Part shown: piece after piece, positions 206 to 50,204 of the stretch
Layout of the letters: each line of letters opens with the position of its first letter
Position numbering within the stretch: the first letter of the stretch is position 1
Assembly: GCF_002161215.1 (NCBI RefSeq)
Contig: NZ_NFMB01000001.1
Span: 248,001-312,000 of the forward strand
Direction of reading: 5' to 3'
Length of the DNA stretch: 64,000 nt
Source: Flavonifractor sp. An10
GTDB taxonomy: Bacteria > Bacillota > Clostridia > Oscillospirales > Oscillospiraceae
Position numbers and translations under genes: made by a program
Notes under the pieces: generated by a model
What the model was told of the DNA's origin: nothing
Database searches by the model: none
Seen by the model: the letters and a program-made list of their open reading frames with translations, nothing else

Positions 206-223
206 GATTAGCCATAGCTTACC
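206..223 (-). promoter_or_regulatory. Degenerate copy of the GTTAG-N6-CTAAC operator
   Basis: Reads GATTAGCCATAGCTTACC, two mismatches from the arms of the 18-bp inverted repeat found intact at 318-335. It lies 29 bp upstream of the start of the divergent GTPase gene. On its own it would not be convincing. It is listed because the intact copy faces it across the same intergenic region. Confidence 0.35.
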
Positions 224-278
224 ACAGGAGATGCAGGATTGTCAGTATCAAATGAGACTGGCCGGCAAGCTTTTTTTC

Positions 279-308
279 TTGACTTACGGCGGGGTTTCAG
301 AGTAGAAT
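279..308 (+). promoter_or_regulatory. Promoter of the Crp/Fnr-ABC operon
   Basis: TTGACT at 279-284 and TAGAAT at 303-308, separated by 18 bp, form a good sigma-A promoter. The operator at 318-335 would cover the transcription start, a position suited to repression. Confidence 0.65.
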
Positions 309-317
309 ATAGCAGTA

Positions 318-335
318 GGTTAGCGATGGCTAACC
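318..335 (+). promoter_or_regulatory. 18-bp inverted-repeat operator, intact copy
   Basis: GGTTAGCGATGGCTAACC is a perfect inverted repeat in its outer seven bases. It begins 9 bp after the -10 box and ends just before the AAGGAGGGG ribosome-binding site of the Crp/Fnr gene. It belongs to the RGTTAG-N6-CTAACY family seen at eight further clear sites in the window. Confidence 0.75.
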
Positions 336-359
336 AAGGAGGGGCGTGATCTGGAGCGA

Positions 360-1001
360 ATGATCATACAGGAAAAACTGGCATCGCCACCCTTTTTGGC
401 GGGCGCATCCCTACCGCTGGAGCAGGTGACCTCAAAGAGGTTCCGTGCGGGCCAGATCATCAGCGACAAGCCGAGCGGCGTTTCATCCGTGGGGATGATC
501 GTGTCCGGACGGGTGGAGGTCTATTCCGTGGCACTGGATGGAAAGGATGTGCAGCTCAATGCCCTGACTGCGGGGGAGTGTTTTGGCGTCTGTAATCTGA
601 TGGCCAGCGCCGAGCTGGAAACGGTCTTGCGATGCGGGGAAGAGACAGAAGTCCTATATATTCCTAAGGCGGTCCTACTCTCCTGTATGGAGCAGGATGC
701 AGGACTTGCCATGCGCTATGCGGCCCTGTGCAACCGGAAGCTCCAGTTTCTGCTCCGGCGCATCGAGCTGCTTACGATGCAGTCCTGCCGAGGCCGGCTC
801 ATTGCCCATCTCCTGGAGCAGCAGGATGAGAAGGGCGTGGTAAGGCTCGCCGGGTCCCGGGAGGATCTGGCCCGCCGTCTGGGGGTCAGCCGGGCCGCCC
901 TTTTCCGGGAGCTGTCCGCGCTCCAGTCCATGGGAGCGGCCGCAGTGGACGGAAATTCCATTCGGATCCAGGACCGCCCGTTGCTGGAAGAACTGCTCTA
1001 G
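360..1001 (+). CDS. Crp/Fnr family transcriptional regulator
   Basis: The 213-residue protein has the Crp/Fnr plan. A cyclic-nucleotide-binding-type beta barrel spans roughly residues 25-115, then a long dimer helix, then a winged helix from about 150. The recognition helix SRAALFRELSAL lies near 177-188. It has no N-terminal four-cysteine Fe-S motif like FNR, but six scattered cysteines (74, 78, 92, 109, 124, 143) could allow redox or metal sensing. It is the first gene of an operon with an ABC importer, and an intact inverted repeat lies at its own promoter. The 5-N6-5 geometry of that repeat matches Crp/Fnr sites, so autoregulation is plausible. The ATG at 360 is chosen; its ribosome-binding site is about 15 bp away. 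Confidence 0.88.
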   Translation: MIIQEKLASPPFLAGASLPLEQVTSKRFRAGQIISDKPSGVSSVGMIVSGRVEVYSVALDGKDVQLNALTAGECFGVCNLMASAELETVLRCGEETEVLYIPKAVLLSCMEQDAGLAMRYAALCNRKLQFLLRRIELLTMQSCRGRLIAHLLEQQDEKGVVRLAGSREDLARRLGVSRAALFRELSALQSMGAAAVDGNSIRIQDRPLLEELL

Positions 1002-1047
1002 CACCCCTCCGACACAAAATGATGAACATTTAGAAAGGAACAACGGT

Positions 1048-2094
1048 ATGAAAAAATTGCTCTCTCTGCTCTGTGTCCTGTCCCTGTCTGCCGCGCTGCT
1101 GGCAGGCTGCTCCACCGCCGGGGATGCCGGCACCTCGGAAACGCCCGGTTCGAGCAGCACGCCATCCGACGTGACAGAGATGGCCGATCCGATCGACGTC
1201 AACGTGATGGCCCTGAAGGGCCCCACCGCAATGGGCATGGTGGAGTTCATGAATGAAGCGGACAGTGGAACGATCACAGACAACAACTATCACTTTAATA
1301 TCACCGCCGCCACCGATGAGGTGTCTGCCGCCCTGGCGCAGGGGACCACGGATATCGCCGCCGTCCCCGCCAACCTGGCTTCTGTCCTTTACAACAACAC
1401 CGAGGGCGGCGTGCAGGTGCTGGCCATCAATACGCTGGGCGTGCTTTACATTGTGGAGAGCGGAGACACGGTACACTCCGTGGAGGACCTCCGGGGCAAG
1501 ACCATTTACGCCAGCGGCAAGGGAAACACACCGGAGGCCGCCCTGAATTATGTGCTGACCCAGAACGGTATCGACCCCTCCGCGGATGTGACCATTGAGT
1601 GGAAAAGCGAGCAGGCCGAGTGCCTTTCCGCCCTGATGGCGGAGGAGAACGCCATCGCCATGCTGCCCCAGCCCTTCGTCACCACCGCCCAGGCCCAGAG
1701 CGAGAGCCTGCGGGTGGCGCTGGATCTGACGGAGGAGTGGGACGCCCTTCAGGCTGACAGCGAGACGCCCTCCACCCTGGTCACTGGCGTGGTGGTGGCC
1801 CGGACCACCTTTGTAGAGGAGCATCCGGAGGTGGTATCTGCCTTCCTGGACCACTATCAGGAGTCGGTGGACTATGTCAACTCCAATGTGGAGGAGGCCG
1901 CCCAGCTGGTGGGCCAGTATGAGATCGTCACCGCCGAAGTGGCACAGAAGGCCCTGCCGGAGTGCAACATTGTTTTCATTGAGGGAGCCGAGATGAAGGA
2001 GAAGCTGTCCGGCTATCTGTCGGTTTTGTTCGAGCAGAATCCTCAGTCCGTGGGCGGCGCCCTGCCTGACGACGCCTTTTACTTCAGCCGCTGA
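1048..2094 (+). CDS. ABC transporter substrate-binding lipoprotein (NMT1/TauA-SsuA type)
   Basis: This 348-residue protein has a signal peptide ending in the lipobox LLAGC (Cys21) and a low-complexity Ser/Thr/Gly linker, so it should be a membrane-anchored extracellular binding protein. The body resembles the NMT1/SsuA/TauA class of ligand-binding proteins (cluster with TauC/SsuC-type permeases). It is followed at 5 bp by the permease and then the ATPase, which gives a complete three-part importer. The substrate cannot be read from sequence. The Crp/Fnr gene in front and the neighbouring iron-related regulon make a metal complex or cofactor precursor possible, but sulfonates or thiamine precursors are the usual ligands of the family. 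Confidence 0.82.
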   Translation: MKKLLSLLCVLSLSAALLAGCSTAGDAGTSETPGSSSTPSDVTEMADPIDVNVMALKGPTAMGMVEFMNEADSGTITDNNYHFNITAATDEVSAALAQGTTDIAAVPANLASVLYNNTEGGVQVLAINTLGVLYIVESGDTVHSVEDLRGKTIYASGKGNTPEAALNYVLTQNGIDPSADVTIEWKSEQAECLSALMAEENAIAMLPQPFVTTAQAQSESLRVALDLTEEWDALQADSETPSTLVTGVVVARTTFVEEHPEVVSAFLDHYQESVDYVNSNVEEAAQLVGQYEIVTAEVAQKALPECNIVFIEGAEMKEKLSGYLSVLFEQNPQSVGGALPDDAFYFSR

Positions 2095-2099
2095 CTTTC

Positions 2100-2849
2100 A
2101 TGAAAGGCCGCCGAACCATACGGGCCTGGGCTGTAATCTTTTGGTTGCTCCTGTGGCAGGCAGGCGCCATGGCCATCGATCAGCGCATCATCCTGGTCTC
2201 TCCCCTCCGTGTGCTGGCGCGGCTGACGGAACTGATCCCCACGCTGGATTTTTGGGGCGCCATCTGGTATTCCCTGGTGCGCATCACAGCGGGTTTCCTG
2301 CTTGGAACAGCGGCCGGAGTTGTGCTGGCGGCTCTGTCCGCCCGGTTCCGCCGGGTGGAGGAGCTGCTGGCGCCAGCCCTCCTGGCCATCAAGTCCATTC
2401 CGGTGGCCTCCTTTATCATTCTGGCGCTGATCCTGTTTTCCTCCAAGAATCTGGCGGTGCTGATCTCCTTCCTGATCGTCCTGCCGGTCCTCTATACCAA
2501 TCTGTTGAGCGGCATCCGGGCCGCCGATCCGCAGCTGCTGGAGATGGCCCGGGTGTTCCGCGTCCCCGCACTCCGCGGCATCCGCTACGTGTATCTGCCC
2601 CAGGTGCTCCCATACTTCCGGTCGGCCTGCGGCTCCGCCCTGGGATTGTGCTGGAAGTCCGGCATCGCCGCCGAGGTCATTGGTATGCCAGACGGCTCCA
2701 TCGGCGAACAGCTCCAGCAGGCCAAAATCTATCTGAACACGCCGGACCTGTTTGCCTGGACGCTGGTGATCGTGCTGGTGAGCCTGATATTTGAAAAGGT
2801 ATTCCTGGCTCTGTTGAAGCGGGGAGAACGCGCCCTGGAGAGGATGTGA
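2100..2849 (+). CDS. ABC transporter permease (SsuC/TauC type)
   Basis: The 249-residue membrane protein has about six hydrophobic segments. The cytoplasmic coupling (EAA-type) loop appears near residues 140-160 as EMARVFRVP followed by the conserved YLPQVLPYF. These are hallmarks of the binding-protein-dependent importer permeases of the nitrate/sulfonate/taurine group. The gene starts 5 bp after the binding protein and ends 3 bp before the ATPase, consistent with one transcript and coupled translation. Confidence 0.88.
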   Translation: MKGRRTIRAWAVIFWLLLWQAGAMAIDQRIILVSPLRVLARLTELIPTLDFWGAIWYSLVRITAGFLLGTAAGVVLAALSARFRRVEELLAPALLAIKSIPVASFIILALILFSSKNLAVLISFLIVLPVLYTNLLSGIRAADPQLLEMARVFRVPALRGIRYVYLPQVLPYFRSACGSALGLCWKSGIAAEVIGMPDGSIGEQLQQAKIYLNTPDLFAWTLVIVLVSLIFEKVFLALLKRGERALERM

Positions 2850-2852
2850 GCC

Positions 2853-3431
2853 ATGCAGGATATTGTGATCCGGGGCCTGTGCAAGGCCTTTGACGGGAAA
2901 CAGGTCCTCCGGGACTTTTCCGCCGCTCTGCCGGCGGGACAGGTCACCGGACTCATGGCCCCCTCCGGTGCGGGCAAGACCACCCTGCTGCGGATCCTCA
3001 TGGGACTGGAGACGCCGGACCGGGGGATCATCACGGGCCTGGATGGTCTGCGCCTGAGCGCTGTGTTTCAGGAGGACCGGTTGTGTGAGAACCTGAATCC
3101 GGTGTCTAACCTCCGCCTGGTGACCCCGGCTTTGAGCTGGGAGGCGGCGGAAGCCGCCCTGGCCACCGTGGGGCTGACGGACTGCCCGCGCCAGCCCGCC
3201 CGGGAGCTGTCCGGCGGGATGCGCCGCCGGGTCGCCATCCTCCGGGCACTGCTGACGGAGTACGACCTGCTGTTCCTGGACGAACCCTTTAAGGGCCTGG
3301 ATCGGAAAACCAAGGAGATCGTCATGGCGGACACCCGCCGACGGTGCGCCGGAAGGACGGTGCTGTTCGTCACCCACGACCCGACGGAACTGGAGGCTAT
3401 GGGCGCCGTACAGCGGCTGGAGCTGTCCTGA
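2853..3431 (+). CDS. ABC transporter ATP-binding protein of the same importer
   Basis: A compact 192-residue ATPase with all nucleotide-binding elements: Walker A APSGAGKTT (36-44), Q-loop (Gln73), signature LSGGM (119-123), Walker B LLFLDE (139-144) and H-loop His175. It lacks the C-terminal extension of many SsuB/TauB proteins, so it is on the short side of the family. It is the last gene before a strong terminator and completes the importer encoded from 1048. Confidence 0.9.
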   Translation: MQDIVIRGLCKAFDGKQVLRDFSAALPAGQVTGLMAPSGAGKTTLLRILMGLETPDRGIITGLDGLRLSAVFQEDRLCENLNPVSNLRLVTPALSWEAAEAALATVGLTDCPRQPARELSGGMRRRVAILRALLTEYDLLFLDEPFKGLDRKTKEIVMADTRRRCAGRTVLFVTHDPTELEAMGAVQRLELS

Positions 3432-3475
3432 ACCCCCGACGTGCCGGCAAGGGTACAACAAAAGCAGAAAAGCAG

Positions 3476-3509
3476 AAAAAGTGGATGCCGGAAGGGCATC
3501 CACTTTTTT
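3476..3509. terminator. Bidirectional rho-independent terminator
   Basis: A 9-bp stem GTGGATGCC / GGCATCCAC (3481-3489 with 3495-3503) is flanked by five A on the left and six T on the right. It would end both the importer operon (plus) and the DUF2249 gene (minus), whose stop is only 12 bp away. Confidence 0.9.
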
Positions 3510-5209: not shown

Positions 5210-5908
5210 CTATTCAGCGGTTCCCAGTCCTGTTCCTGGATATCTCCCGTGCAGGCGTCCTTCACTCCTGCTCTGCGCGGTGATCCGTTCCGCCGGTGTC
5301 CACCGGCAGGCGGCGCAACAAAGGGGCAGCACACGGCCGCCCAGCAGTGCGTGCTCCACCACCCAGAAATCGTGCATGGACAGATAGGAGACAAACTCTC
5401 CAGCGTTCCAGCGGTGGTAAACATGGAAACCGGTTCGCTCCATACACCAGGTGCGAAGCCTTGCCAGCCGCCCTCCGCCGTGGACAAAGGTAGGGGCAAA
5501 CAACCATCCGCCCGGCTTCAGAACCCGCTGGATCTCCCGGAGCACGCGATCCGGCTCCGGCAGGATGTGCAGGGCATTGGCGATGACCACCGCGTCGAAG
5601 GACTCCGGCGCGTAGGGCAGATGGGCGGCATCCTGGACAGAGAAGTGGAGGCGTGAGGAGCCGATCCGCTTTTTCGCCTCCTGGATCATAGCGGGAGCGG
5701 CGTCCGTGGCCTCCCAGAGCCGGACATAGGGCGAGAGCGGAAAGGACAGCTGCCCCGTGCCGCAGGCCAGCTCCAGCACGTTCATATCCCGGGAGAGATG
5801 GGGCCGGATCCGCTCACACACCGCCGCGTACAGCGGTGCGGAGCGGTCCATGGACCTGGTATAATGCCGGGCAGTCTTCTGCCAAAAAGCCAATTCAGAT
5901 TCCTTCAT
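5210..5908 (-). CDS. Class I SAM-dependent methyltransferase (UbiE-like)
   Basis: The 232-residue protein has motif I VLELACGTGQ near residue 45, the acidic motif II ATDAAP, a QDAAHLPYAPESFDAVV motif III region and the RVLKPGGW post-motif, all typical of small-molecule methyltransferases. The last 40 residues are basic and poorly conserved-looking. Its promoter (TTGCAA 5971-5976, TATCTT 5948-5953, 17-bp spacer, minus strand) is followed by an intact copy of the window-wide inverted repeat at 5928-5945. That ties it to the putative iron/redox regulon. The substrate is unknown. Confidence 0.85.
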   Translation of the reverse strand: MKESELAFWQKTARHYTRSMDRSAPLYAAVCERIRPHLSRDMNVLELACGTGQLSFPLSPYVRLWEATDAAPAMIQEAKKRIGSSRLHFSVQDAAHLPYAPESFDAVVIANALHILPEPDRVLREIQRVLKPGGWLFAPTFVHGGGRLARLRTWCMERTGFHVYHRWNAGEFVSYLSMHDFWVVEHALLGGRVLPLCCAACRWTPAERITAQSRSEGRLHGRYPGTGLGTAE

Positions 5909-5927: not shown

Positions 5928-5945
5928 GGTTAGTATCTGCTAACC
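5928..5945 (-). promoter_or_regulatory. 18-bp inverted-repeat operator, methyltransferase promoter
   Basis: GGTTAGTATCTGCTAACC; with flanks the arms extend to TGGTTAG / CTAACCA. It lies immediately downstream of the -10 box (5948-5953) of the minus-strand methyltransferase promoter, the same geometry as the copies at 318 and 9559. Confidence 0.75.
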
Positions 5946-6515: not shown

Positions 6516-7067
6516 TCAGCCAGCTACCGTGAGCTGCTCGATGGACTTCCCCTGTTCCCACTGCTGGGAATAGATTTTGCTGCATTTTTTGTACCTTCGA
6601 AAGATACACTTGGCCGCTTGTTCATCACCGTAGACCTTCCAGCAGCCAACGCACTTGTGATTGCACGCTTTATTGAGAATGAAACCCAGGACATCCTCCG
6701 GCGGATAGCTGAGAAACAGGCCGATCTCATGGGGGAATTCTCCGTCCGACCGCAGACGTTGGATCAGGTGGATCACACACCGGTTGGAATCTTCCGGCGT
6801 ATAACCATATTGCAGGAGCAGTCCCCTGGAACAGTGATCTGCCAGATCACACTCCAGCGCATTGGGCCGGTAGACATAGATAAGGGCACGGCCTTTCTGA
6901 ACTCTCAGCGGCAGGGCGCGGATCCCCTTGGGGACCAGCTTCCTGTTCAAGCGGCATAATTCTTTTGTCAGTGCGGCTTTGCAGGGGCAGGCGCAGGAAA
7001 ACAGGTTTCCGGTTTTGATCCCTGCCAAAGTCGGGGCGCAGTGGCGAATGACCAGGTCTTCTGACAT
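6516..7067 (-). CDS. DUF3793 family protein
   Basis: The 183-residue protein carries the family hallmark HEIGLFLSYPPEDVLGFI near residue 115, and cysteine-containing segments (SCACPCK near 25, NHKCVGCWKVYG near 138). The family is widespread in clostridia next to flavodoxins and iron-uptake genes, and its biochemical role is not established. Eight or more cysteines suggest metal or redox function, which is an inference. It is probably cotranscribed with the small membrane protein upstream and the flavodoxin downstream. Confidence 0.8.
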   Translation of the reverse strand: MSEDLVIRHCAPTLAGIKTGNLFSCACPCKAALTKELCRLNRKLVPKGIRALPLRVQKGRALIYVYRPNALECDLADHCSRGLLLQYGYTPEDSNRCVIHLIQRLRSDGEFPHEIGLFLSYPPEDVLGFILNKACNHKCVGCWKVYGDEQAAKCIFRRYKKCSKIYSQQWEQGKSIEQLTVAG

Positions 7068-7340: not shown

Positions 7341-8960
7341 TTAAGTCAGCAATTCCAACAGTTGCCGGATGCTCTTCTTGCCAAAGGAGACCTGCTCCCC
7401 GCTGTTGACCACCAGGCAGGGGACGCTCATGACCTGGTACTTTTCCCGCAGGTCGGGGAAGTGGTTCAGGTCGTAGACCTGGGCGGTGATGTTCGGATTT
7501 TCCGCGGCAATGCGCTGGGCCGCCGTCACCAGTTCCGGACACATGGTGCAGGACAGCGAGACCAGGATCTGCAAATCCGTCTGTTTCTGGATCGCCTGGA
7601 TCGCGGCCCGGCTCTCTTCGTCCCAAGCCTGTCCCGGCCCGGCGGCGTTATAGAGTCCGAGGACGAAAGAGGTGAACTCATGGCCGCCGGGGACGCCGTG
7701 GAAGGCAAGGCCCGTCCAGCTGCCGTCCGCCCGGCAGACCCGGACGCAGGGCAGATGGTCCGCACTGGCGGGGTCACCCACTTCAACAGATAATTTCCCG
7801 CTCTGGGCCGCCAGCTCATCCATGTATTGCCGCAGTTCGGCGGAGAGGGGCGTTTCATCCAGATACAGACGCAGAATCAATGGCGCGGCCATTCGGGCGA
7901 ATACGGTATGGAGCTGGGAGAGCATATCTCCTGTGAAAAGGTCGCTGCCTATTTTCGTCAGGGTTTCCGGCACTGCAATCCAGCTGGCCGGTGGCTGAGG
8001 ATGGAGGCCGGTCTTGGCCTGCATGGCGGCGCACAGCCGCTCCAGCTCCGTGGCGGCCAGGGCGCCGTCTCCCACAGCGGTGACCACCTGCCGCAGGGGC
8101 TTGACACATACGTCCCCGGCGGCATACAGGCCGTCCGCCGTGGCCTTCTGGCTGCGGTCGGTGAGGATATAGCCCTGCTCGTCCAACTCCGCCAGCCCTT
8201 GCACCAGCTCCGTGGCCGGCTCATATCCGGCAAAGACGAAGACGCCGAAAGCCTCTCCGTCCGCCGCGTGGTGCTTGGTCACCTGGCCGGTCTTTGTGTT
8301 GCGATAGCGGATGAACCGCAGGGCGGTGTCACCGGACACCTCCTCCACCACTGTGTTGGTGAGGACTGTGATCTTCTCATGGTTCCGGGCGGCGTCCGCC
8401 GTGGTCTGGGCGCAGGTGAAGCCATCGCCCCGGATCAGGATGGTCACATGGCGGGCGTACTTGGTAAGAAACACGCTCTCCTCAGCGGCCGCGAAGCCGC
8501 CGCCCACCACAAAGACATCCTTGCCGGTAAAGAACTCCCCATCGCAGGTGGCGCAATAGGCAACTCCCCGCCCCCGGAACTGTGCTTCACCCTGGAACCC
8601 CACCATACGGGGATGGGCGCCGGTGGCCAGCAGGACGCCGAAGCACTTCAAATCGCCACGCCCAGTGCGCACAGTCTTCACATCACCGCTCAGATCCAGT
8701 TCGGTGACCTCCGCCAGGAGGAATTCCGCACCGAAGGACTCGGCCTGTTTCCGCATCGTTTCCGTGAGCGCGGCGCCGCTGGTTCGCTCCACCCCGGGGA
8801 AATTGACCACTTTTGCGGTAATGGTGATCTGCCCGCCGAAGTGGTTCTTTTCCACGACCACGACCCGGTAGCGGGCCCGGGCCAGATAGAGGGCGGCGGT
8901 GAGTCCCGCCGGCCCTCCTCCGATGACCACGACATCGTAGAGATTTTCCATCCGCTCCAT
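7341..8960 (-). CDS. Thioredoxin reductase-like flavoprotein fused to thioredoxin-fold domains (AhpF-like)
   Basis: The 539-residue protein has an N-terminal FAD domain (GGGPAGL at 14-20), an NAD(P)H domain containing the redox site CATC, and a C-terminal tandem thioredoxin-fold region (about 330-539) with a second redox pair, SCTMCPEL. The order is the reverse of E. coli AhpF, which has the thioredoxin folds first. The gene starts 4 bp after the AhpC stop, so it is the likely electron donor of that peroxidase. Both sit behind the operator-controlled promoter at 9585-9614. Confidence 0.88.
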   Translation of the reverse strand: MERMENLYDVVVIGGGPAGLTAALYLARARYRVVVVEKNHFGGQITITAKVVNFPGVERTSGAALTETMRKQAESFGAEFLLAEVTELDLSGDVKTVRTGRGDLKCFGVLLATGAHPRMVGFQGEAQFRGRGVAYCATCDGEFFTGKDVFVVGGGFAAAEESVFLTKYARHVTILIRGDGFTCAQTTADAARNHEKITVLTNTVVEEVSGDTALRFIRYRNTKTGQVTKHHAADGEAFGVFVFAGYEPATELVQGLAELDEQGYILTDRSQKATADGLYAAGDVCVKPLRQVVTAVGDGALAATELERLCAAMQAKTGLHPQPPASWIAVPETLTKIGSDLFTGDMLSQLHTVFARMAAPLILRLYLDETPLSAELRQYMDELAAQSGKLSVEVGDPASADHLPCVRVCRADGSWTGLAFHGVPGGHEFTSFVLGLYNAAGPGQAWDEESRAAIQAIQKQTDLQILVSLSCTMCPELVTAAQRIAAENPNITAQVYDLNHFPDLREKYQVMSVPCLVVNSGEQVSFGKKSIRQLLELLT

Positions 8961-8963: not shown

Positions 8964-9527
8964 TTACAACTGCCCCACCAGATCCAGGCTGGGCTTCAGG
9001 GTCTCGGCGCCAGGCTGCCACTTCGCCGGGCACACCTCGTCTCCATGCTCCGCCACGAACTGGCAGGCCTGCACCTTCCGCAGAAGTTCATCGGCATTCC
9101 GGCCCACATTGCCGGCGTTGACCTCATAAGCCACGATTTTCCCTTCGGGGTTCACGATGAAGCTGCCCCGCTCGGCCACGCCGTCCGCCTCGATATAGAC
9201 CTCAAAATCTTTGGCCAGACAATGGGTGGGGTCGGCCAGCATGGGATACTGGATATTCTGGATGCGCTCGGAAGCGTCATGCCACGCCTTATGGACGAAA
9301 TGGGTATCGCAGGAAACAGAGTAGATTTCGCAGCCGATGGCCTGGAATTTCTCATAGAGATTGGCCAGATCCTCCAATTCTGTGGGGCACACAAAGGTAA
9401 AATCGGCAGGATAGAAGAAGAACACGCTCCACTTGCCCAGGATGTCCGCCTTGGAGACAGCTCGGAAAGCGTTGTTCTGGTAGCACTGTACGGTGAAATC
9501 GGCAATTTCTTTCTGAATCAGGGACAT
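8964..9527 (-). CDS. ahpC: Alkyl hydroperoxide reductase C (2-Cys peroxiredoxin)
   Basis: From the ATG at 9527 the protein is 187 residues. It starts MSLIQKEI like other AhpC proteins and has the peroxidatic cysteine in FTFVCPTE (Cys47) and the resolving cysteine in EVCPAKW. An in-frame ATG at 9545 overlaps the GGAGG ribosome-binding site, so it is not used. It reduces H2O2 and organic peroxides with electrons from the adjacent AhpF-like reductase. A near-consensus promoter and an inverted-repeat operator lie upstream. Confidence 0.95.
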   Translation of the reverse strand: MSLIQKEIADFTVQCYQNNAFRAVSKADILGKWSVFFFYPADFTFVCPTELEDLANLYEKFQAIGCEIYSVSCDTHFVHKAWHDASERIQNIQYPMLADPTHCLAKDFEVYIEADGVAERGSFIVNPEGKIVAYEVNAGNVGRNADELLRKVQACQFVAEHGDEVCPAKWQPGAETLKPSLDLVGQL

Positions 9528-9558
9528 GGGTGATTCAACCTCCATTCATATTTCTTGA

Positions 9559-9576
9559 AGTTAGCTGTCGCTAACC
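9559..9576 (-). promoter_or_regulatory. 18-bp inverted-repeat operator, ahpC promoter
   Basis: AGTTAGCTGTCGCTAACC lies between the ahpC -10 box and the start codon, at the same distance from the -10 as in the Crp/Fnr and methyltransferase promoters. The core GTTAGC-N4-GCTAAC is a perfect inverted repeat. Confidence 0.75.
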
Positions 9577-9686: not shown

Positions 9687-9740
9687 TTGATTTTTGCGTT
9701 AAGCAGGTGTATACTGCTCTTGGGTTAGTTATTGCTAACC
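9687..9740 (+). promoter_or_regulatory. Promoter and 18-bp operator of the second methyltransferase operon
   Basis: TTGATT (9687-9692), a 17-bp spacer and TATACT (9710-9715) are followed by GGTTAGTTATTGCTAACC at 9723-9740. The operator, including its non-palindromic centre, is identical in 17 of 18 positions to the one in front of ABC pair 1 (16848-16865). Confidence 0.75.
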
Positions 9741-9763
9741 TATTTTGAGGGATGAGGGTGCCT

Positions 9764-10414
9764 ATGGAACTTTTTCGATCTTTCCTTCGCAACACACGAA
9801 AACCGGAAGGTTTTCTGGGCAAGTGCATGGTAGCCAGCATGAATTATGCCCATGCCGCCCTGGCGGACTGGGGACTGGGCTGTTTGCCGAAAACAGGTCC
9901 CGTCAGGATTGCGGAACTGGGCTGCGGCGGCGGCCGAAACATCCGGGCCCTTCTGCGAAAATACCCTGCCGCAACTGTCACCGCCCTGGACTATTCGGAA
10001 ATATCCGTGGAAAAGGCCAGAAATATCAATCAGGAAGAACTGCAGGCCGGCCGCTGCCGTGTCATACAGGGAGATGTTTCTCGCCTCCCTTTCGAGGATA
10101 GGGCATTTGATCTGGCGACTGCCTTTGAAACGGTATATTTCTGGCCCGGCCCCACGGAGAGTTTCCGGGAGGTGTACCGCATCTTGCGGCCGGGCGGCAT
10201 CTTTCTGATCGTCAATGAAGTGGACGGAGAAAATCCCCGAGACAGCAGGTGGCTTTCTGTCATTGATGGGATGAAGATATTCAACCGGAGCCAGTTTGTC
10301 ACCTTTCTCACCGAGGCTGGTTTTTCTAAGGTCATCGTGAAGCGGGATGCGAAAAGACACTGGCTCTGTGTGCTGGCGATCCGGGAGGATGCGGGGTGTT
10401 CAGGCAATAAATAA
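9764..10414 (+). CDS. Class I SAM-dependent methyltransferase
   Basis: Starting at the ATG at 9764 (GAGGG 5 bp upstream; another in-frame ATG at 9752 is too close to the ribosome-binding site), the protein is 216 residues. It has motif I IAELGCGGGRNI, motif II ALDYSE, a GDVSRLPFEDRAFDLA motif III segment and the ILRPGGIF post-motif. It heads a short operon with a membrane protein and a third methyltransferase. Regulation by the inverted-repeat operator is likely. The substrate is unknown. Confidence 0.87.
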   Translation: MELFRSFLRNTRKPEGFLGKCMVASMNYAHAALADWGLGCLPKTGPVRIAELGCGGGRNIRALLRKYPAATVTALDYSEISVEKARNINQEELQAGRCRVIQGDVSRLPFEDRAFDLATAFETVYFWPGPTESFREVYRILRPGGIFLIVNEVDGENPRDSRWLSVIDGMKIFNRSQFVTFLTEAGFSKVIVKRDAKRHWLCVLAIREDAGCSGNK

Positions 10415-16208: not shown

Positions 16209-16826
16209 ATGGAAGAGAACACTCCCACCACATTGGAAAGGATCCAGGAGGCGGCCATGACCGAATTTCTGGACAAGGGCTTTCTGGGGGCCTCCCTGCG
16301 GCAGATCGTGAAGAACGCCGGGGTAACTACCGGAGCTTTCTATGGCTACTTCTCCAGCAAGGAGGCTCTATTTGCCTCTATTGTAGAACCCCACGCCAAG
16401 GCACTGATGGGCCGGTTCATGGAGGCCCAGACCTCCTTTGCTGAGTTGCCCGAGGAACAGCAGCCGGAGCATATGGGGATAGAATCCTCGGACTGTGTCC
16501 ACTGGATGGTGGACTACATCTGCCAGCACCGCCAGGCAGTGAAGCTGCTCCTGTGCCGGGCGGAGGGCACCGGCTATGAGCAATTCATCCACAACATGGT
16601 GGAGGTGGAGGTGGAATCCACCCTCCGCTATATGGAAGTGCTGCGGCATCTGGGGCGGGATGTGCCGGAACTGAGCCGGTCCCTGTGCCACATCATCGCC
16701 AGCGGGATGTTCAGCGGCCTCTTTGAGATCGTGGTCCACGATATGCCCCGGGAGCAGGCACAGCGGGACGTGGAACAGTTCCGCCAGTTTTACACCGGAG
16801 GATGGCTGAAATTGATGGGGGGATGA
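16209..16826 (+). CDS. TetR-family regulator (upstream of ABC pair 1)
   Basis: The 205-residue protein has the TetR N-terminal HTH (TRIQEAAMTEF-like start, SLRQIVKNAGVTTGAFYGYFSSKEALF at about 36-62) and a divergent all-helical ligand domain. It directly precedes ABC pair 1 and has its own 28-bp palindrome. The ABC pair has a separate operator of the common 18-bp type, so it may answer to both. The ligand is unknown; in this setting a metallophore or its breakdown product is plausible. Confidence 0.9.
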   Translation: MEENTPTTLERIQEAAMTEFLDKGFLGASLRQIVKNAGVTTGAFYGYFSSKEALFASIVEPHAKALMGRFMEAQTSFAELPEEQQPEHMGIESSDCVHWMVDYICQHRQAVKLLLCRAEGTGYEQFIHNMVEVEVESTLRYMEVLRHLGRDVPELSRSLCHIIASGMFSGLFEIVVHDMPREQAQRDVEQFRQFYTGGWLKLMGG

Positions 16827-16847: not shown

Positions 16848-16865
16848 GGTTAGTTATTGCTAACT
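16848..16865 (+). promoter_or_regulatory. 18-bp inverted-repeat operator, ABC pair 1
   Basis: GGTTAGTTATTGCTAACT lies 20 bp upstream of the start of ABC pair 1 and just before its AAAGGAGG. Only the final base differs from the operator at 9723-9740. Confidence 0.7.
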
Positions 16866-20533: not shown

Positions 20534-20896
20534 ATGATGAAACTTCATGCATCGGGAGAAGATTACCTGGAGGCTATCCTTGTCCTCCACAAGAAAGCGG
20601 GCATGGTGCGCTCCGTGGATGTCGCCCGGCATTTGGATGTATCCAAGCCCAGCGTGTGCCATGCGGTGGCGACCCTGCGGGACGGAGGCTTTCTGACGAT
20701 GGACGGGGACTACTTCCTGCACCTGACCGACATTGGCCGGGAAGTAGCGGAACAGATCTATGAAAAGCACCGCTTTTTTACTGAGCGCCTGATCGCTGCT
20801 GGCGTAGCACCCGAGACAGCCGAGCGGGACGCCTGCCGCATTGAGCACGTAATCAGCGACGAGAGTTTCCAAAAATTAAAGAAACAACTCATGTAA
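20534..20896 (+). CDS. Short DtxR-type metal-dependent repressor, copy 1
   Basis: This 120-residue protein has the DtxR/MntR plan: an N-terminal winged helix with ligand-bearing helix GEDYLEAI, HTH VDVARHLDVSKPSVCHAVATL, and a C-terminal dimerisation helix pair. Expected metal ligands are present: Asp and Glu of EDYLE, His of EKHRFF, and Cys, Glu, His of ACRIEH. A cysteine at the MntR Glu99 position is the state seen in iron-sensing DtxR. It has no SH3/FeoA domain. Two near-identical paralogues follow other ABC pairs (29842, 53735). Confidence 0.9.
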   Translation: MMKLHASGEDYLEAILVLHKKAGMVRSVDVARHLDVSKPSVCHAVATLRDGGFLTMDGDYFLHLTDIGREVAEQIYEKHRFFTERLIAAGVAPETAERDACRIEHVISDESFQKLKKQLM

Positions 20897-22515: not shown

Positions 22516-22533
22516 GGTTAGCAATATCTAACT
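22516..22533 (+). promoter_or_regulatory. 18-bp inverted-repeat operator, ECF module
   Basis: GGTTAGCAATATCTAACT lies 17 bp before the MptD gene. It is directly after the terminator at 22468-22506, so any promoter must overlap the hairpin region; none is obvious. Confidence 0.65.
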
Positions 22534-22549: not shown

Positions 22550-23155
22550 ATGTCTGAACCAATCAAACGCCGCGGAATGAGCGGCAAGGATGTCATTACC
22601 GTGGGGATTTTCTCCGCCATTTACTTCGTCATTAACTTCGCCTTCATGCTTCTGGGCGGGCTGCACCCGCTGCTATGGATCTTGATGCCCGGCTTCATCG
22701 CCCTGTTCACCGGCATCCCGTATCTCATGATGTGCGCCAAGGTGCAGAAGGCGGGTTCGGTGTTGCTTATGGGCCTCATCACCGGCCTCATCTACTATGT
22801 CACCGGGCAGTTCACCGTGGTGATCCTTGTCTCCTTCGTCCTGGCCTGCGGCCTGGCGGAACTCACCAGGGGCCTCATCAACTACCGGAGCATCGCCGGC
22901 AACATGGCGTCCTTTGTGCTGTTCTCGGTGGGCATGGTGGGATCTCCGCTGCCCATCTGGCTCATGCGGGAGGACTTCCTGCGGCAGATTACGGAGCAGG
23001 GGATGCCGGCGGACTATGTGAACACCCTGGCAGCCCTCTCCTCCACTGGAATGCTGGTGGTGCTGTTTCTGGCGCCCATCGTGGGCGCGATCATCGGGGG
23101 CTTCATCGCCCGGGCCATGTTCCGCAAGCACTTTGAGAAGGCCGGCCTGGTGTGA
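22550..23155 (+). CDS. MptD-family ECF transporter S component
   Basis: The 201-residue protein has about five to six hydrophobic helices and matches the Trep_Strep/MptD family of substrate-binding S components (start KDVITVGIFSAIYFVINF, then a GGLHPLLWILMPG segment and a conserved GMVGSPLPIWL loop). It binds substrate and docks on EcfT. It is followed within 2 bp by the T component and then a fused double ATPase. In the equibactin locus of Streptococcus equi, comparable ECF genes accompany YbtPQ-like ABC genes and a DtxR-like regulator. The same combination occurs here, so a metal or metallophore substrate is likely. Confidence 0.88.
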   Translation: MSEPIKRRGMSGKDVITVGIFSAIYFVINFAFMLLGGLHPLLWILMPGFIALFTGIPYLMMCAKVQKAGSVLLMGLITGLIYYVTGQFTVVILVSFVLACGLAELTRGLINYRSIAGNMASFVLFSVGMVGSPLPIWLMREDFLRQITEQGMPADYVNTLAALSSTGMLVVLFLAPIVGAIIGGFIARAMFRKHFEKAGLV

Positions 23156-26251: not shown

Positions 26252-26290
26252 TATAATCGTTGTAGTTAGCGTGAGCGAACTACAACGATT
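26252..26290 (+). promoter_or_regulatory. -10 box and 36-bp perfect inverted repeat upstream of ABC pair 2
   Basis: TATAAT at 26252-26257 overlaps the left arm of AATCGTTGTAGTT / AACTACAACGATT (26255-26267 with 26278-26290), a perfect 13-bp inverted repeat with the spacer AGCGTGAGCG. No good -35 is visible (CGGACA at the right distance), as expected for an activator-dependent promoter. The outer ATCGTT/AACGAT and inner GTTAGCG/GCGAAC pieces recur at the TetR promoter 35372-35390. Confidence 0.65.
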
Positions 26291-29841: not shown

Positions 29842-30210
29842 ATGGAACTCCGAGCATCCGGCGAAGATTACCTGGAGGCCATTCTGGTGCTCCAAAAACA
29901 GAAAGGCATAGTGCGCTCCGTGGATGTGGCCCGACACATGGATGTGTCCAAGCCCAGCGTATGCCATGCAGTGGCCACTTTGAAAAGTGGAGGGTTCCTT
30001 ACTATGGATGACGATTTTTTCTTGCATCTGACCGAGGTGGGCCGCGAGGTTGCGGAGCAGATCTACGAAAAGCACCGCTTTTTTACCCAACGCCTGATCG
30101 CTGCCGGCGTGGATCCGAAAACCGCTGAGGCAGACGCCTGCCGGATTGAGCACGTCATCAGCGAGGAGAGCTTCCGGCGACTCAAGGCAGCTATGGAACC
30201 AGAGCCATAA
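29842..30210 (+). CDS. Short DtxR-type metal-dependent repressor, copy 2
   Basis: A 122-residue paralogue of the protein at 20534 with the same layout: GEDYLEAI ligand helix, HTH around VDVARHMDVSKPSVCHAVATL, EKHRFF and ADACRIEHVIS. Metal ligands Asp, Glu, His, Cys, Glu and His are all present. It is cotranscribed with ABC pair 2 and followed by the hairpin and winged-helix gene. If it represses its own operon when iron is abundant, this would give feedback. Confidence 0.9.
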   Translation: MELRASGEDYLEAILVLQKQKGIVRSVDVARHMDVSKPSVCHAVATLKSGGFLTMDDDFFLHLTEVGREVAEQIYEKHRFFTQRLIAAGVDPKTAEADACRIEHVISEESFRRLKAAMEPEP

Positions 30211-30272: not shown

Positions 30273-30722
30273 GTGGACGAAATCATTGTCATCCGGGCTG
30301 CAGACCCGGACGGCAGTTTATTTCAGGCAATCATGGACGTTTTGAAAGACAAGCGGGCGGAAGTGATCCACGCCGCTACCTCAGTCTCCTCCGTGCTGCG
30401 CATCGGGGAGTTGGAGATCCATCACGGGCACCGCCGGGTGTTTGTGGCCGGCAGGGAAGTGCGTCTCAACCACGGGGAATACGCCATGCTCTACTGCATG
30501 GCCAGCGCCCCCGGGCAGGTATTTTCCAAGGTGCAGCTCTATGCAGCGGCTTGGGGAGAGGGGTATCTGCATAGGACTACATCGGTAGAGAATATCATCT
30601 GGCGGCTGAGACGGAAATTGGAATCTGATCCGAAACATCCAGACTATATTAAGACAGTGCTCAGAGCAGGATACAAGATGAACAATCCAATGAATAAGGT
30701 GGTTAATCTTCGTTCTGATTAG
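30273..30722 (+). CDS. Stand-alone OmpR/PhoB-type winged-helix protein, copy 2 (intact)
   Basis: It starts with GTG behind GGGAGG and encodes 149 residues. The C-terminal 100 residues are a Trans_reg_C winged helix (GREVRLNHGEYAMLYCMASAPGQVFSK, then TTSVENIIWRLRRKLESDP and YIKTVLRAGYKM). There is no receiver domain. Instead a conserved 40-residue N-terminus (VDEIIVIRAADPDGSLFQAI) is shared by all copies, with no phosphoacceptor aspartate setting. No histidine kinase is nearby. I do not know this N-terminal module. It always follows a DtxR-type gene and a hairpin. Confidence 0.8.
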   Translation: MDEIIVIRAADPDGSLFQAIMDVLKDKRAEVIHAATSVSSVLRIGELEIHHGHRRVFVAGREVRLNHGEYAMLYCMASAPGQVFSKVQLYAAAWGEGYLHRTTSVENIIWRLRRKLESDPKHPDYIKTVLRAGYKMNNPMNKVVNLRSD

Positions 30723-31654: not shown

Positions 31655-31672
31655 AGTTAGCGATAACTAATT
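31655..31672 (+). promoter_or_regulatory. 18-bp inverted-repeat operator, ABC pair 3
   Basis: AGTTAGCGATAACTAATT, one mismatch in the right arm (CTAAT for CTAAC). It lies 17 bp before the ABC pair 3 start, the same place as for pairs 1 and 4. Confidence 0.6.
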
Positions 31673-35410: not shown

Positions 35411-36025
35411 ATGCCGAAGGACAAGACGGAAACCCACGAACGGATCATACCGGCCGCCATGAAGATCTTTCTGGAAAAAGGCTTTGAAAAGGCCACCATG
35501 CGGGAGATCGCGGAGGAGGCTGGCATCACCGCCGCCGGACTGTACCGCCACTTTGTAGACAAGGAGGCCATGTTCGCCGCCCTGGTGGAGCCGGTACTCT
35601 CCGAACTTCAGAAGTGGTGTGAGCGGACGCGGCAGGTGGACTATGACTTTCTGGAGCAGGGCGACCTGGATGCCATGTGGGATTCAGGCAATGATTTGGG
35701 CCTGGTGGTGGAACAGATCTATTCCCATTTCAACGAGTTCAAGCTGCTGCTTTGCTGTTCCGCCGGGACCAAGTACGCCTGGTTTCTCCACGATATTGTG
35801 GTTATGGAGCAGCAGGAGACGCTGGCCTACATGGAGGAAGCGAAGAAGCATGGCGTCCCGGTAAAAGAAGTGGACCCCAAAGAACTCCATCTGCTTATGA
35901 CCGCCTATACCAATGCCCTCTTTGAAGTTGTAGTCCATGACTTCACCAAGGAGGAGGCCCTGCACTACCTGGATACGATGCACCAGTTCTTCATTCCCGG
36001 CTGGCGGGCCATCCTGGGGCTTTGA
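35411..36025 (+). CDS. TetR-family regulator (upstream of broken S component and ABC pair 4)
   Basis: The 204-residue protein has the TetR HTH (TMREIAEEAGITAAGLYRHFVDKEAMF at about 27-52) and a ligand domain whose final part (HLLMTAYTNALFEVVVHDFTKEEALHYLDTM) resembles the TetR at 16209, so the two are likely paralogues. It precedes the MptD pseudogene and ABC pair 4. Confidence 0.9.
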   Translation: MPKDKTETHERIIPAAMKIFLEKGFEKATMREIAEEAGITAAGLYRHFVDKEAMFAALVEPVLSELQKWCERTRQVDYDFLEQGDLDAMWDSGNDLGLVVEQIYSHFNEFKLLLCCSAGTKYAWFLHDIVVMEQQETLAYMEEAKKHGVPVKEVDPKELHLLMTAYTNALFEVVVHDFTKEEALHYLDTMHQFFIPGWRAILGL

Positions 36026-36048: not shown

Positions 36049-36066
36049 AGTTAGCGAAAACTAACT
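36049..36066 (+). promoter_or_regulatory. 18-bp inverted-repeat operator, pair 4 region
   Basis: AGTTAGCGAAAACTAACT, with intact arms. It lies 30 bp upstream of the start of the broken MptD gene and is the only operator seen ahead of ABC pair 4. Confidence 0.7.
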
Positions 36067-40406: not shown

Positions 40407-40455
40407 TTGTCCGTAAGCGCCTGATATAGTATATTGTGGTTAGTATACGCAAACT
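40407..40455 (+). promoter_or_regulatory. Promoter of the LysR gene with a degenerate operator copy
   Basis: TTGTCC (40407-40412), 17-bp spacer, TATATT (40430-40435), then GGTTAGTATACGCAAACT (40438-40455), in which the right arm is CAAAC for CTAAC. The place relative to the -10 is the same as for intact copies. Confidence 0.5.
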
Positions 40456-46678: not shown

Positions 46679-47607
46679 TTTTTTGTGGGACAACACTTTT
46701 GTCGGGTGAGCGGAAAAACGTACCGCTCCCGGTACCGGATGCTCCGCCTCTGAATGCAATCTGCCTGTGCGGCGCCGCACGGGGCAGAACACTGGTTGTC
46801 ACAGGCGGGGTCCATGGGTGCGAATATGTGGGGCCCCAGGCACTGCGCCGCCTGGCTGGAGAACTGGACCCGGCGAGACTGTCGGGGAACGTCATCCTCC
46901 TGCCGCTGGCAAATCCCAGCGCCTTCTATGCCGGAGCCAAACAGGTGGTGCCAGAGGACGGCGTCAATTTGAACCGAGCCTTCCCCGGCGATTCTGCGGG
47001 CAGCCTTTCCGCTCGATTGGCCTTTGCTCTGGAAACGGCTTTGTACCCGGAAGCCGATTTGCTGGCTGATCTCCACAGCGGAGACTGCAACGAGGCGCTT
47101 CATCCATTGGTGTTCTTCCCCACAGCGGGGGAGGAAATAGTCAACCAAGTCTCCCTGGCCGCCGCCAAGGTCCTGACTGTACCCTACCGGGTACGTTCCA
47201 CTGCGAAGAACGGACTTTACAGCTGGGCGGTGCAGAGGGGCGTTCCCGCCCTGCTGATTGAGCGGGGCGGTCAGGGGCTGTGGTCTGAACAGGAGGTGGA
47301 CGCCTGCTGTGAGGATGTCCGCTCCCTGCTGCGACATCTGGAGGTTATGCCCGGAGGGAACCCGCCGCGGGATCAGCTGGAAATCACAGAAACCTTCTAT
47401 GCGGAAGCTGAGTCGGAGGGATTTTGGTACCCGGCAGTAGGTTTAGACCAACAGGTCCGAAGGGGAGAACTGCTCGGACATCTGGAGACGCTGTCCGGCC
47501 ACCGCTTACAAGAGGTTCGGGCCGAGTTTGACGGCATTGTCCTTTACTACACAATCGCCCTGGGCGTCCGGGCGGGAGATCCGCTGATCGCATATGGCCA
47601 TCCGTAA
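46675..47607 (+). CDS. Zinc carboxypeptidase-fold deacylase (AstE/aspartoacylase family)
   Basis: The 310-residue protein shows the family's zinc site: His47 and Glu50 in GGVHGCEYVG and His134 in LADLHSGD. Substrate-binding NLNRAFPG (98-105) and the likely catalytic Glu in LLIERGGQG (about 205) are also seen. The C-terminal 80 residues form the usual beta domain. Members hydrolyse N-acyl amino acids or amide/peptide-like bonds with a free carboxylate. Locked between the Nik-like importer and a MATE exporter by overlaps, it probably processes the imported ligand in the cytoplasm. Confidence 0.85.
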   Translation: MIFCGTTLLSGERKNVPLPVPDAPPLNAICLCGAARGRTLVVTGGVHGCEYVGPQALRRLAGELDPARLSGNVILLPLANPSAFYAGAKQVVPEDGVNLNRAFPGDSAGSLSARLAFALETALYPEADLLADLHSGDCNEALHPLVFFPTAGEEIVNQVSLAAAKVLTVPYRVRSTAKNGLYSWAVQRGVPALLIERGGQGLWSEQEVDACCEDVRSLLRHLEVMPGGNPPRDQLEITETFYAEAESEGFWYPAVGLDQQVRRGELLGHLETLSGHRLQEVRAEFDGIVLYYTIALGVRAGDPLIAYGHP

Positions 47608-48931
47608 GGAATTCTGGCGGCTGGCCTGGCCCGCCGCGGCAGAGGGACTGTTGCTGATGTTGCTCACCGCCGCCGACCTGCTGATGGTTTCCTCTCTGGG
47701 AAACACAGCGGTGGCGGCGATCAGTATTTTTTCCCAACCCCGTATGGTGATCCTCTGCGTAACCCGCTCCTACTCTGTTGCACTGAGCGCCTATGTTGCC
47801 CGCCGGCGCGGCGAGGATCCGGATGAGTCCCTGACCGCCTGTTCCCGCGCTTCGCTCATGCTGGGGTGCGGTCTCTCGATACTGCTCCTGGTCGGGACCT
47901 GGATTGGAGCCGGCCCGCTTCTACAACTGGCCGGTGCACAGGATGACTATATCAGCTTGGCGTTGCGGTATGCCTTTCCCGCCCTGGTGAGTCTGGCATT
48001 CTCCGGGCCGGCTATTGTCCTTCACGGCATCTTGGCGGGGCTTGGCGATACCAAAAGCGTGCTTGTGTCCAATGTGCTGGGCAACGGAGTCAATGTCGTC
48101 TTCAATGCGCTGCTGATCTACGGCCTTGGTCCATTCCCCAAATTGGGAGTTTTTGGCGCCGGGCTTGGAACCGCTATCGGTGCTGGCGCTACGCTGGCCT
48201 ATACGCTGGCGCTTTTCTTACGGCGGCGGCATCCGGCCACTCTGCGGGGCAGAGGGGACTGGCTGCCGGGACGGGAATACCTCCGCTCCCTGGCTCCCCT
48301 TGCCGCGGGCACGTTCCTGGAGCAGGCGGCGGAACGGTTCGGGATGTTCACATTCTCCCGCCTGGTGGCGGATCTGGGCACAGTGGCGCTAAGCGTCCAC
48401 AACATCTGCGGGAGCCTGTGCGACATTTACTATAGCTTCTCCCAGGGGCTTGGGAAGGCCAGCTTGGTTCAGGCAGGCCAGGCGTTGGGCTCTGGACGGA
48501 CGTGCAATCTGAAACGGATCGGGGCGGTGTCCCGCCGGGCGGCGCTGTGGACTGGGGGTGCGGCCACGCTGATCTATTTGCTGCTCCGGTCGCCCTTGCT
48601 TCGGTTCTACCACTTGGAGGGCAATGACCTGGCTCTGGGCTGTGAGATCATGATCTTTGTGGCTGCTGTCAACATTCCGGAGGCATGGGCTATGGTCCAT
48701 GCGGGGCTGCTCCGTGGCTTGGGGCATACCAGTTTTGTGGCCCTCTATTCTCTCATCAGTATCGCGGTGGTGCGGCCGATCCTTACCTTCTTTCTGGTTT
48801 ATGAACTTGGTCTGGGATTATACGGAGCATGGATTGCCCTTACTCTCGATCAAGCAACAAGAGCGGTATGTTCCATGCTGGGAGCGCAGCAGACGATTCG
48901 TACCAAGATGAAGGATGGCTCAAATTCATAA
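47594..48931 (+). CDS. MATE-family efflux transporter
   Basis: The 445-residue protein has twelve predicted helices in two related halves, starting FWRLAWPAAAEGLLLMLLTAADLLMVSSLG as in other MATE proteins. MATE transporters export organic cations or other small molecules in exchange for Na+ or H+. It overlaps the deacylase gene by 14 bp and closes the operon. In this setting it could expel the processed ligand. Confidence 0.88.
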   Translation: MAIRKEFWRLAWPAAAEGLLLMLLTAADLLMVSSLGNTAVAAISIFSQPRMVILCVTRSYSVALSAYVARRRGEDPDESLTACSRASLMLGCGLSILLLVGTWIGAGPLLQLAGAQDDYISLALRYAFPALVSLAFSGPAIVLHGILAGLGDTKSVLVSNVLGNGVNVVFNALLIYGLGPFPKLGVFGAGLGTAIGAGATLAYTLALFLRRRHPATLRGRGDWLPGREYLRSLAPLAAGTFLEQAAERFGMFTFSRLVADLGTVALSVHNICGSLCDIYYSFSQGLGKASLVQAGQALGSGRTCNLKRIGAVSRRAALWTGGAATLIYLLLRSPLLRFYHLEGNDLALGCEIMIFVAAVNIPEAWAMVHAGLLRGLGHTSFVALYSLISIAVVRPILTFFLVYELGLGLYGAWIALTLDQATRAVCSMLGAQQTIRTKMKDGSNS

Positions 48932-49100
48932 TCTCCTTGATATTATTGTAGCGTCCTCATATAGATTTTTCTATTACCATAGATATCGGGCGCAATGAGA
49001 TTGTAAATCATTCACCGGTTCCTTCAGGCTTAGGAGCAAGCCGAGAGCTGGCGGCTGTCTTTCTTCCTACCTCCTGTCTTTTTCGGTCCGGCGTATTCTC

Positions 49101-50081
49101 TCACTCTGCTTCCCGTGGGTGGGAGAACGCCCGGAACGCTGCCGGGCTCTGCCCGGTGCTGCGGCGGAAGAGCTGCGCGAAACGGCTGGGATTCTGATAG
49201 CCCACAATTTTAGCGATCTGGCCCACGGGCAGGTCGGTATTTGCCAGCAGCTGTTCCGCACGCTCCATCCGCTGCTCCTGAATATACTGAGTGATGGTGC
49301 AGCCGTATCGGGTGTGAAAGGCATCCTTCAGCTTGGAGACGCCCATGCAGCCGATGCGGGCCAGGCGCTCCAGAGGCAGCCGGTCCGCACAATGGGCGGT
49401 GATGTAGGCCGCCACATCCGCCAGCATCCGCTCATCCTCCTGCGTCAGTGTCCGCCTGGGAGCTGGGTGGGCCCGGTGCCGTTCCACCACCAGCGCCACG
49501 GCTTCCGCCACCTTGCCGTCGTAAAAGAGTTTGGCGGCCAGCCCCTCGCCCCGGTAGTCACGGACCTCTTTCAGCAGGCGGACCATCTCCGGGAAGTGGT
49601 CGGTCTGGTCCAGAGATTGAAAGGATTCCAACAGGCTTTGGAACTCCTCCGGAAACTGGCGGCGGAGGTAGTCCTGATAGTAGGCCGGAGTGATCTCAAT
49701 GCCGATGGATACGATGGGGACCCGGCGGTGGATGAGCGCCCGGTAGGGCTCCCGCCCGCCGATGAAGCTCTTGACACAGCCGGACACCAGCCGGCGGCAG
49801 GGAGAGAACTCCTCCCCGGAGATGGACTCGTACCAGGTGACGCTCAGGCTCTCCGGCCAGCAAAACTCCAGAAGCTGATCCTCGTGAAAATAGAAATCGT
49901 GGATTTTGAGCATATAGAGGTCCTGCTGCCCATAGGTCCAGAAATAGCCGCTTCCACCGGGGCCGGCCTGCCGCCAGCACAGGCCCATGCTTCCATACCT
50001 CCGGTTGTCCGGCTCCGGCACAAAACCATGCTCTGCCATGGCCCCGGCATATTGCTCATCCAACACATTGCAGCTATACAT
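49101..50081 (-). CDS. AraC-family regulator divergent from ABC pair 5
   Basis: The ATG at 50081 lies about 10 bp after GGAGG. The product is 326 residues: a 220-residue ligand-binding region and a C-terminal AraC domain (LPLERLARIGCMGVSKLKDAFHTRYGCTITQYIQEQRM, then VGQIAKIVGYQNPSRFAQLFRRSTGQSPAAFR). Its division and length resemble those of the AraC regulator beside pair 2. It shares the intergenic region with the pair 5 promoter, so it probably activates that pair, in the manner of YbtA. Confidence 0.87.
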   Translation of the reverse strand: MYSCNVLDEQYAGAMAEHGFVPEPDNRRYGSMGLCWRQAGPGGSGYFWTYGQQDLYMLKIHDFYFHEDQLLEFCWPESLSVTWYESISGEEFSPCRRLVSGCVKSFIGGREPYRALIHRRVPIVSIGIEITPAYYQDYLRRQFPEEFQSLLESFQSLDQTDHFPEMVRLLKEVRDYRGEGLAAKLFYDGKVAEAVALVVERHRAHPAPRRTLTQEDERMLADVAAYITAHCADRLPLERLARIGCMGVSKLKDAFHTRYGCTITQYIQEQRMERAEQLLANTDLPVGQIAKIVGYQNPSRFAQLFRRSTGQSPAAFRAFSHPREAE

Positions 50082-50150
50082 TCTGACACGCCTCCTCCGC
50101 CTCAATCGGCCGAATCCATACCCCGATCAGCCGCATGAGCGTGGCACGCC

Positions 50151-50204
50151 TTGTATCTGTGACAGACAGGGAGTATGCTGTTATTTAGTTAGTATCTACT
50201 AACT
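50151..50204 (+). promoter_or_regulatory. Promoter and 18-bp operator of ABC pair 5
   Basis: TTGTAT (50151-50156), 17-bp spacer, TATGCT (50174-50179), then AGTTAGTATCTACTAACT at 50187-50204. The palindrome extends on both sides (TTTAGTTAGTA / TACTAACTAAA), the longest symmetric copy in the window. Confidence 0.75.

Follow-up and report, generated by a model that had tools for sequence, protein, structure and literature searches.

The closest described operator is the IdeR/DtxR box of Actinobacteria, TTAGGTTAGSCTAACCTAA, in which TTAG occurs at positions 1 and 6 and CTAA at positions 11 and 16, i.e., two TTAG-N6-CTAA units. The metal ligands of IdeR are Cys102, Glu105 and His106 (IdeR numbering); in MntR, an Asp at the position matching IdeR Met10 is a metal ligand, and the targets of MntR are of another kind than feoB-linked genes. 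Crp/Fnr sites, for their part, have a 5-N6-5 layout. Excerpts of an IdeR study (PMC8464063) describe one dimer on repeats 1 and 3, a single-dimer site TTAGGNNNNCCTAA (S. erythraea) and a 19-bp DtxR/IdeR box in which two single-dimer sites, each of N6 spacing, overlap; they also state that Gln43 of IdeR contacts the base beside CTAA and that the Q43A variant still binds. In the excerpted part of an IdeR review (PMC10317159), the use of half sites in other species is posed as a question.

Here, we analysed a window of 64,000 nucleotides from Flavonifractor sp. An10 (C1:248001-312000, C1 being a contig label in a genome split over 15 contigs), in which a sequence-only reading had proposed an 18-bp repeat, RGTTAG-N6-CTAACY, as a probably repressive operator shared by iron-type genes and owned by either a Crp/Fnr or a DtxR protein. 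Eight exact copies are indeed located where that reading had put them, and none appeared in 100 dinucleotide shuffles. From the comparisons below, it is highly probable that the repeat serves as operator for a short metalloregulator of the DtxR type, which would bind each site as one dimer and repress transcription in a metal-dependent manner. The putative operators and associated features are as follows.

206-223: degraded copy with two mismatches, at chance level
318-335: exact copy ahead of the Crp/Fnr-ABC operon (start 360); TTGACT-18-TAGAAT as -35/-10, gap 10 bp
360-1001, + strand: Crp/Fnr-type regulator, read as a target and not as the owner
5928-5945: exact copy ahead of a methyltransferase gene (5210-5908, - strand)
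9559-9576: exact copy ahead of ahpC (8964-9545, - strand), itself followed by a reductase gene (7341-8960, - strand); TTGACA-18-TATAAT, gap 9 bp
9723-9740: exact copy ahead of a methyltransferase gene (9752-10414, + strand); TTGATT-17-TATACT, gap 8 bp
16848-16865: exact copy, with a tetR gene (16209-16826) before it and an ABC pair from 16885 after it
22516-22533: exact copy ahead of a Trep_Strep gene (22550-23155), followed by an ABC gene
26255-26290, + strand: terminator-like hairpin at an earlier-claimed degraded copy, 13-bp stem running into a U tract
31655-31672: inexact copy (one mismatch in an arm), flanked by a tetR gene and an ABC pair whose ORF runs from 31681; assigned by position
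36049-36066: exact copy, with a tetR gene (35411-36025) before it and a Trep_Strep/ABC unit after it
40438-40455: possible weak operator with one arm mismatch, ahead of a lysR-type gene (40462)
50187-50204: exact copy 52 bp ahead of an ABC pair (50257-53722)

The copy at 31655, which the sequence-only reading had counted as a ninth member, is not exact, but it is plausible because it occupies the same kind of position as others, with a tetR gene on one side and an ABC pair on the other, and stands 8 bp ahead of the first possible start codon (GTG, 31681). The degraded copies that it had added are weak as a class, since the window holds 13 matches with at most two mismatches (the eight exact copies included) for 10.5 expected. 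The copy at 206 is probably not part of an operator, and the one at 26266-26281 looks more like a terminator than an operator (hairpin of -20.2 kcal/mol, z -5.9), even though a TATAAT-type promoter was scored 7 bp upstream of it (p 0.01). A sequence resembling a promoter stands 3 bp upstream of the copy at 40438 (p 0.04).

Hereafter, the strict site is GTTAG-N6-CTAAC, the core site is TTAG-N6-CTAA and the control is the reversed pattern. Over the whole genome (3.88 Mb, 15 contigs), the strict site occurs 22 times and its control once. When spacers of 0 to 20 were scanned, N6 accounted for 22 of the 26 matches, the reversed pattern yielding 47 over all 21 spacers, and the same spacing was found in 39 of 44 strict matches from 80 named DtxR loci (the best 80 of at least 589 confirmed DtxR stretches, with titles from Oscillospiraceae, Lachnospiraceae and others). 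Across 120 genomes of the family, 474 strict sites were counted for 113 reversed ones, with at least one site in 102 genomes and a count above the control in 92 and below it in 12. Of the two genomes from the same genus, one has 13 sites (control: 2) and two DtxR matches, the other 5 sites (control: 1) and one DtxR match. Among open-licence papers, we found none describing this motif.

The sequence-only reading had seen in the 1-bp centre of DtxR/IdeR boxes a doubt about a DtxR protein. This doubt does not hold, since the 19-bp box contains two N6 single-dimer sites (PMC8464063, in excerpts) and the N6 layout is thus that of one DtxR dimer. Shared with the actinobacterial system are the TTAG/CTAA half-sites, the first two domains of the regulator, the placement in the region of the -10 and the start, and the iron-uptake targets; in contrast, the IdeR/DtxR box takes two dimers at a 5-bp offset, whereas the sites studied here would be separate single-dimer sites, often in tandem. 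The classic 19-bp box itself was rejected as an operator in this group, as it is absent from all 120 genomes at up to two mismatches (reversed control: 3). With the half site of S. erythraea IdeR, the TTAG-N6-CTAA spacing and the one-dimer form are common (PMC8464063, in excerpts), but that site has a C before CTAA, where ours mostly have A or G, the C of the searched motif being the outer one (CTAAC); the C that opens each CCTAA repeat in IdeR sites is thus mostly lacking. The IdeR-type base beside CTAA was observed in 1 of 44 half-sites of the genome and in 8 of 140 in relatives, and since the preferred base differs from that of IdeR, recognition would not be identical. The exact published half site was also considered as an enriched form and discarded, because its 24 occurrences in the 120 genomes fall below the reversed control and reveal no overall enrichment, this control having a base bias of its own (26 in the Flavonifractor genome alone). 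Yet, for eight of these 24, a listed feoB or DtxR match is no more than 0.7 kb away (in genomes G007, G014, G037, G046, G051, G055, G084 and G095), which supports a common kind of site.

The linkage of the motif to DtxR and feoB genes extends across genera. The 30 top-scoring DtxR loci (91.6 kb) contain 21 strict sites, found in 13 loci and absent from the other 17, while the 30 top-scoring FeoB loci (L091-L120), many of them with long open frames, contain eight in four loci, and the 30 top-scoring Crp loci of relatives (93.3 kb) contain none, the reversed pattern being absent from all three sets. As the chance expectation estimated from the average density is about 0.2 sites per set, the zero at Crp loci reflects a lack of enrichment and not a depletion. 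In the 80 named DtxR loci, we counted 39 strict sites in 22 loci against no reversed one, and 56 core sites in 26 loci against 10. The core site is present in 22 of the 23 named loci with feoB and in 4 of the 57 without it (linkage counts based on feoB only). Moreover, dtxR and feoB are divergent in 20 of these 23 loci, and in 19 of the 20 a core site lies between both matches, its sole copy being right beside feoB in three (L177, L185 and L195). These loci argue for DtxR, one of the two owners considered in the sequence-only reading. At the genome level, the 11 of 120 genomes without a PF02742 match have 15 sites (control: 4); a search with the N-domain scored over the cut-off in four of them, including G065 (6 sites), and gave no match over the cut-off in G072 (3 sites).

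It is unlikely that another iron regulator, Fur-type or one of the neighbouring TetR, AraC or LysR proteins, owns the site and that the DtxR genes are fellow targets. Three window sites directly follow tetR genes, a divergent dtxR gene could be a target only and linkage to feoB could also suit a Fur-type protein, for example; however, TTAG-N6-CTAA has the spacing of a single DtxR dimer, and a core site so regularly separating divergent dtxR and feoB genes fits DtxR better.

Ownership by the Crp/Fnr-type protein of the window or one of its paralogues, the other option of the sequence-only reading, appears slightly less probable still. The layout does agree with it, a copy sits in the promoter of the gene itself, and, of the nine Crp/Fnr genes that the genome has above the Pfam cut-off, two are preceded by a site (C1:248319 and C1:228050). 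Site counts correlate weakly with the number of P0001-like Crp copies (Spearman 0.24, the counts of 5 of the 120 genomes having been set to 0 by subtraction) and more with that of DtxR copies (0.43), the genomes sharing ancestry, so that p-values are too small. Yet, the window protein has no close relative in 119 genomes of the family, even within the genus (none of the matches listed exceeds 35% identity), the motif was found at 13 of 30 DtxR loci but at 0 of 30 Crp loci, and the linkage to feoB is not explained by Crp/Fnr. In addition, the 20 genomes with DtxR but without a P0001-like match, some of which have other Crp-type genes, contain 54 sites against 18 for the control. Within the Flavonifractor genome, a strict site is found within about 9 kb of seven of the eight DtxR matches versus two of the nine Crp genes over the cut-off, part of these counts coming from one shared island. 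Crp/Fnr is thus disfavoured on linkage and conservation, and its gene looks like a target of the motif.

Returning to DtxR, the genome has eight PF02742 matches. One is a core gene, located on contig C15; six more are full copies as well, of which three are in the window and the others at C1:64 kb, on C2 and on C10; the last is a fragment that forms the end of a different regulator. The copies of the window, all in the same transporter island, are:

20534-20896, + strand: DtxR-type regulator, island copy 1, 120 aa
29842-30210, + strand: DtxR-type regulator, island copy 2, 122 aa, with PDB sequence matches to IdeR, DtxR, MntR and their kin
53735-54103, + strand: DtxR-type regulator, island copy 3, 122 aa

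Both the Fe_dep_repress winged helix and Fe_dep_repr_C pass the Pfam cut-off in copies 2 and 3, while the SH3-like C-terminal domain of IdeR and DtxR is absent from the window copies (120-122 aa versus 225-233 aa for full-length chains of IdeR and DtxR in the PDB). Being short and without SH3, these proteins resemble MntR, as does the Asp at the IdeR Met10 position of 29842-30210; they differ from it by Cys-Glu-His ligands as in IdeR/DtxR, and the motif by its link to feoB. Indeed, C, E and H at the positions of Cys102, Glu105 and His106 are invariant in 35 of 35 aligned DtxR copies. In contrast, the position of Gln43 is occupied by H in 29842-30210 and by R, V, Y, I, H or S among the 35 copies, never by Q. 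Both the recognition residue and the base contacted in IdeR are thus changed here, but since IdeR Q43A still binds, a tie between the two changes is suggestive only. In the phylogeny, the core copy (L016) groups at 100/99 with L087, a motif-adjacent DtxR of another genus, whereas the six other copies form one group at 98/95 (for both groups, the bootstrap is not fully settled); its closest match among the collected loci (86%) comes from an uncultured Flavonifractor sp. As the motif is adjacent to the closest relative that the core gene on C15 has in another genus, this gene would be the likeliest owner, and the window copies probably read the same site.

Other regulators are found next to these genes. 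Directly after island copy 1, the 20900-21814 gene (+ strand) encodes a regulator of a different type, WYL-like by eye. Its last 48 residues or so are very close to the metal-binding end that the DtxR copies nearby have, and with no stop interrupting the frame, it is apparently a fusion. Two island DtxR genes are followed by small stand-alone OmpR-type winged-helix proteins (30273-30722 and 54070-54588, + strand). Elsewhere in a collected locus, a protein with a DtxR-type DNA-binding domain, seemingly devoid of the metal ligands, is encoded after feoB (L029:11493-12134, i.e., G000:C9:474492-475133).

Genome-wide, the sites mostly stand just ahead of gene starts (gene direction judged by inspection). 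A Shine-Dalgarno-like stretch and the start codon of a frame of at least 70 aa follow within 61 bp in 16 of 22 cases; sites 248319, 298188, 307681 and 173463 are 24-52 bp ahead of a long ORF, and two (241327 and 284050) are without a clear following gene start. Site 298188 is also followed by a 116-aa frame after a Shine-Dalgarno-like stretch, but this frame is not the ABC gene. Regarding promoters, the 22 exact-site rows represent 21 sites, as one was scanned on both strands and C9:471645 was left out. A promoter is readable in eight of these rows, at an uncorrected p≤0.06 relative to shuffles, the site then being 4-16 bp past the -10. Two of the three weak copies also score at p≤0.06, which brings the range of gaps to 3-16 bp. 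The 2 to 13 bp of the sequence-only reading therefore roughly stands where a promoter can be read, but does not apply to 15 of 25 site rows, from which a convincing promoter is absent.

In the Flavonifractor genome, a tandem pair of motifs precedes feoA-feoB, and the promoter TTGAC[A/T]-N6-GTTAG-N6-[T/C]AAACT to which it belongs was found 15 times in 1.03 Mb of loci (chosen for the motif, DtxR, FeoB or Crp, and not a random sample) versus once for a control pattern. Its -10 position reads TAAACT in 14 cases and CAAACT in one, and a full or near-full site follows 8-17 bp further downstream in 12 of the 15. The right half of the promoter-embedded site is the -10 element itself, which suggests repression by promoter blocking and makes the operator probably repressive, in line with the sequence-only reading. 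That the repeat acts instead in RNA, as a 5'-UTR hairpin involved in attenuation or stability, is very improbable, for although many sites lie between promoter and Shine-Dalgarno and the arms are extended at some of them (e.g., C11:244955 and C2:185353), one site of the feo promoters overlaps both the -10 itself and the spacer that separates it from the -35, a position ahead of the point where the transcript should begin, and the flanking pair -1/+16 is Watson-Crick at 12 of 22 sites, G-U at 4 and unpaired at 6.

Judging from Pfam matches, the predicted targets make up an iron-type gene set: feoB, with a tandem pair ahead of feoA-like genes (labelled by reading their sequence, without a Pfam match), DUF3793 (also a tandem pair), Trep_Strep/CbiQ modules, ABC pairs, methyltransferases, ahpC with its reductase, an AraC-type gene and two Crp/Fnr genes with NMT1-type ABC systems. 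Such targets, along with the feoB linkage in relatives, agree with the single shared operator for iron-type genes put forward by the sequence-only reading. The DUF3793 gene downstream of the tandem sites on C11 is at L031:8027-8590; a second one in the window island (6516-7067) has no strict site ahead of it.

The mechanism that we infer for the DtxR-type regulator would be the following. Composed of a winged helix and a metal-binding/dimerisation domain without SH3, it would bind each GTTAG-N6-CTAAC as one dimer, on the equivalent of one of the two interleaved sites in the 19-bp box. When metal is plentiful, the dimer would sit on or just after the -10 and switch off the genes of iron uptake and others related to them, and it would come off the DNA under metal scarcity. 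Given that feoB recurs as a neighbour, Fe(II) is the most probable metal.

These results provide a probable operator and regulator for the control of iron in gut Clostridia, for which we found no described DtxR regulon in open-licence papers. Single-dimer sites look like the rule here, which bears on the question about half sites raised in the review, as excerpted (PMC10317159). A broader picture can be proposed tentatively, at somewhat less than even chances: a gut Clostridia iron regulon built on single-dimer DtxR operators, RGTTAGY-N4-RCTAACY, without the double box, in which the core repressor of the Flavonifractor genome would share its operator with six DtxR paralogues, three of them in the transporter island, competing for the sites. 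As the site can be searched for in the genomes of the group, iron-regulated genes could be predicted from it.

Finally, two features of site spacing were observed in the collected loci. Among 24 pairs of strict sites less than 120 bp apart, the neighbours are separated by 25 bp in six and by 34-36 bp in six. There is also a minor spacer peak at GTTAG-N10-CTAAC in the 80 named loci, with 4 strict and 11 core matches, mostly close to N6 sites (examples at L152:2785, L217:640 and 1071, and L229:1811).
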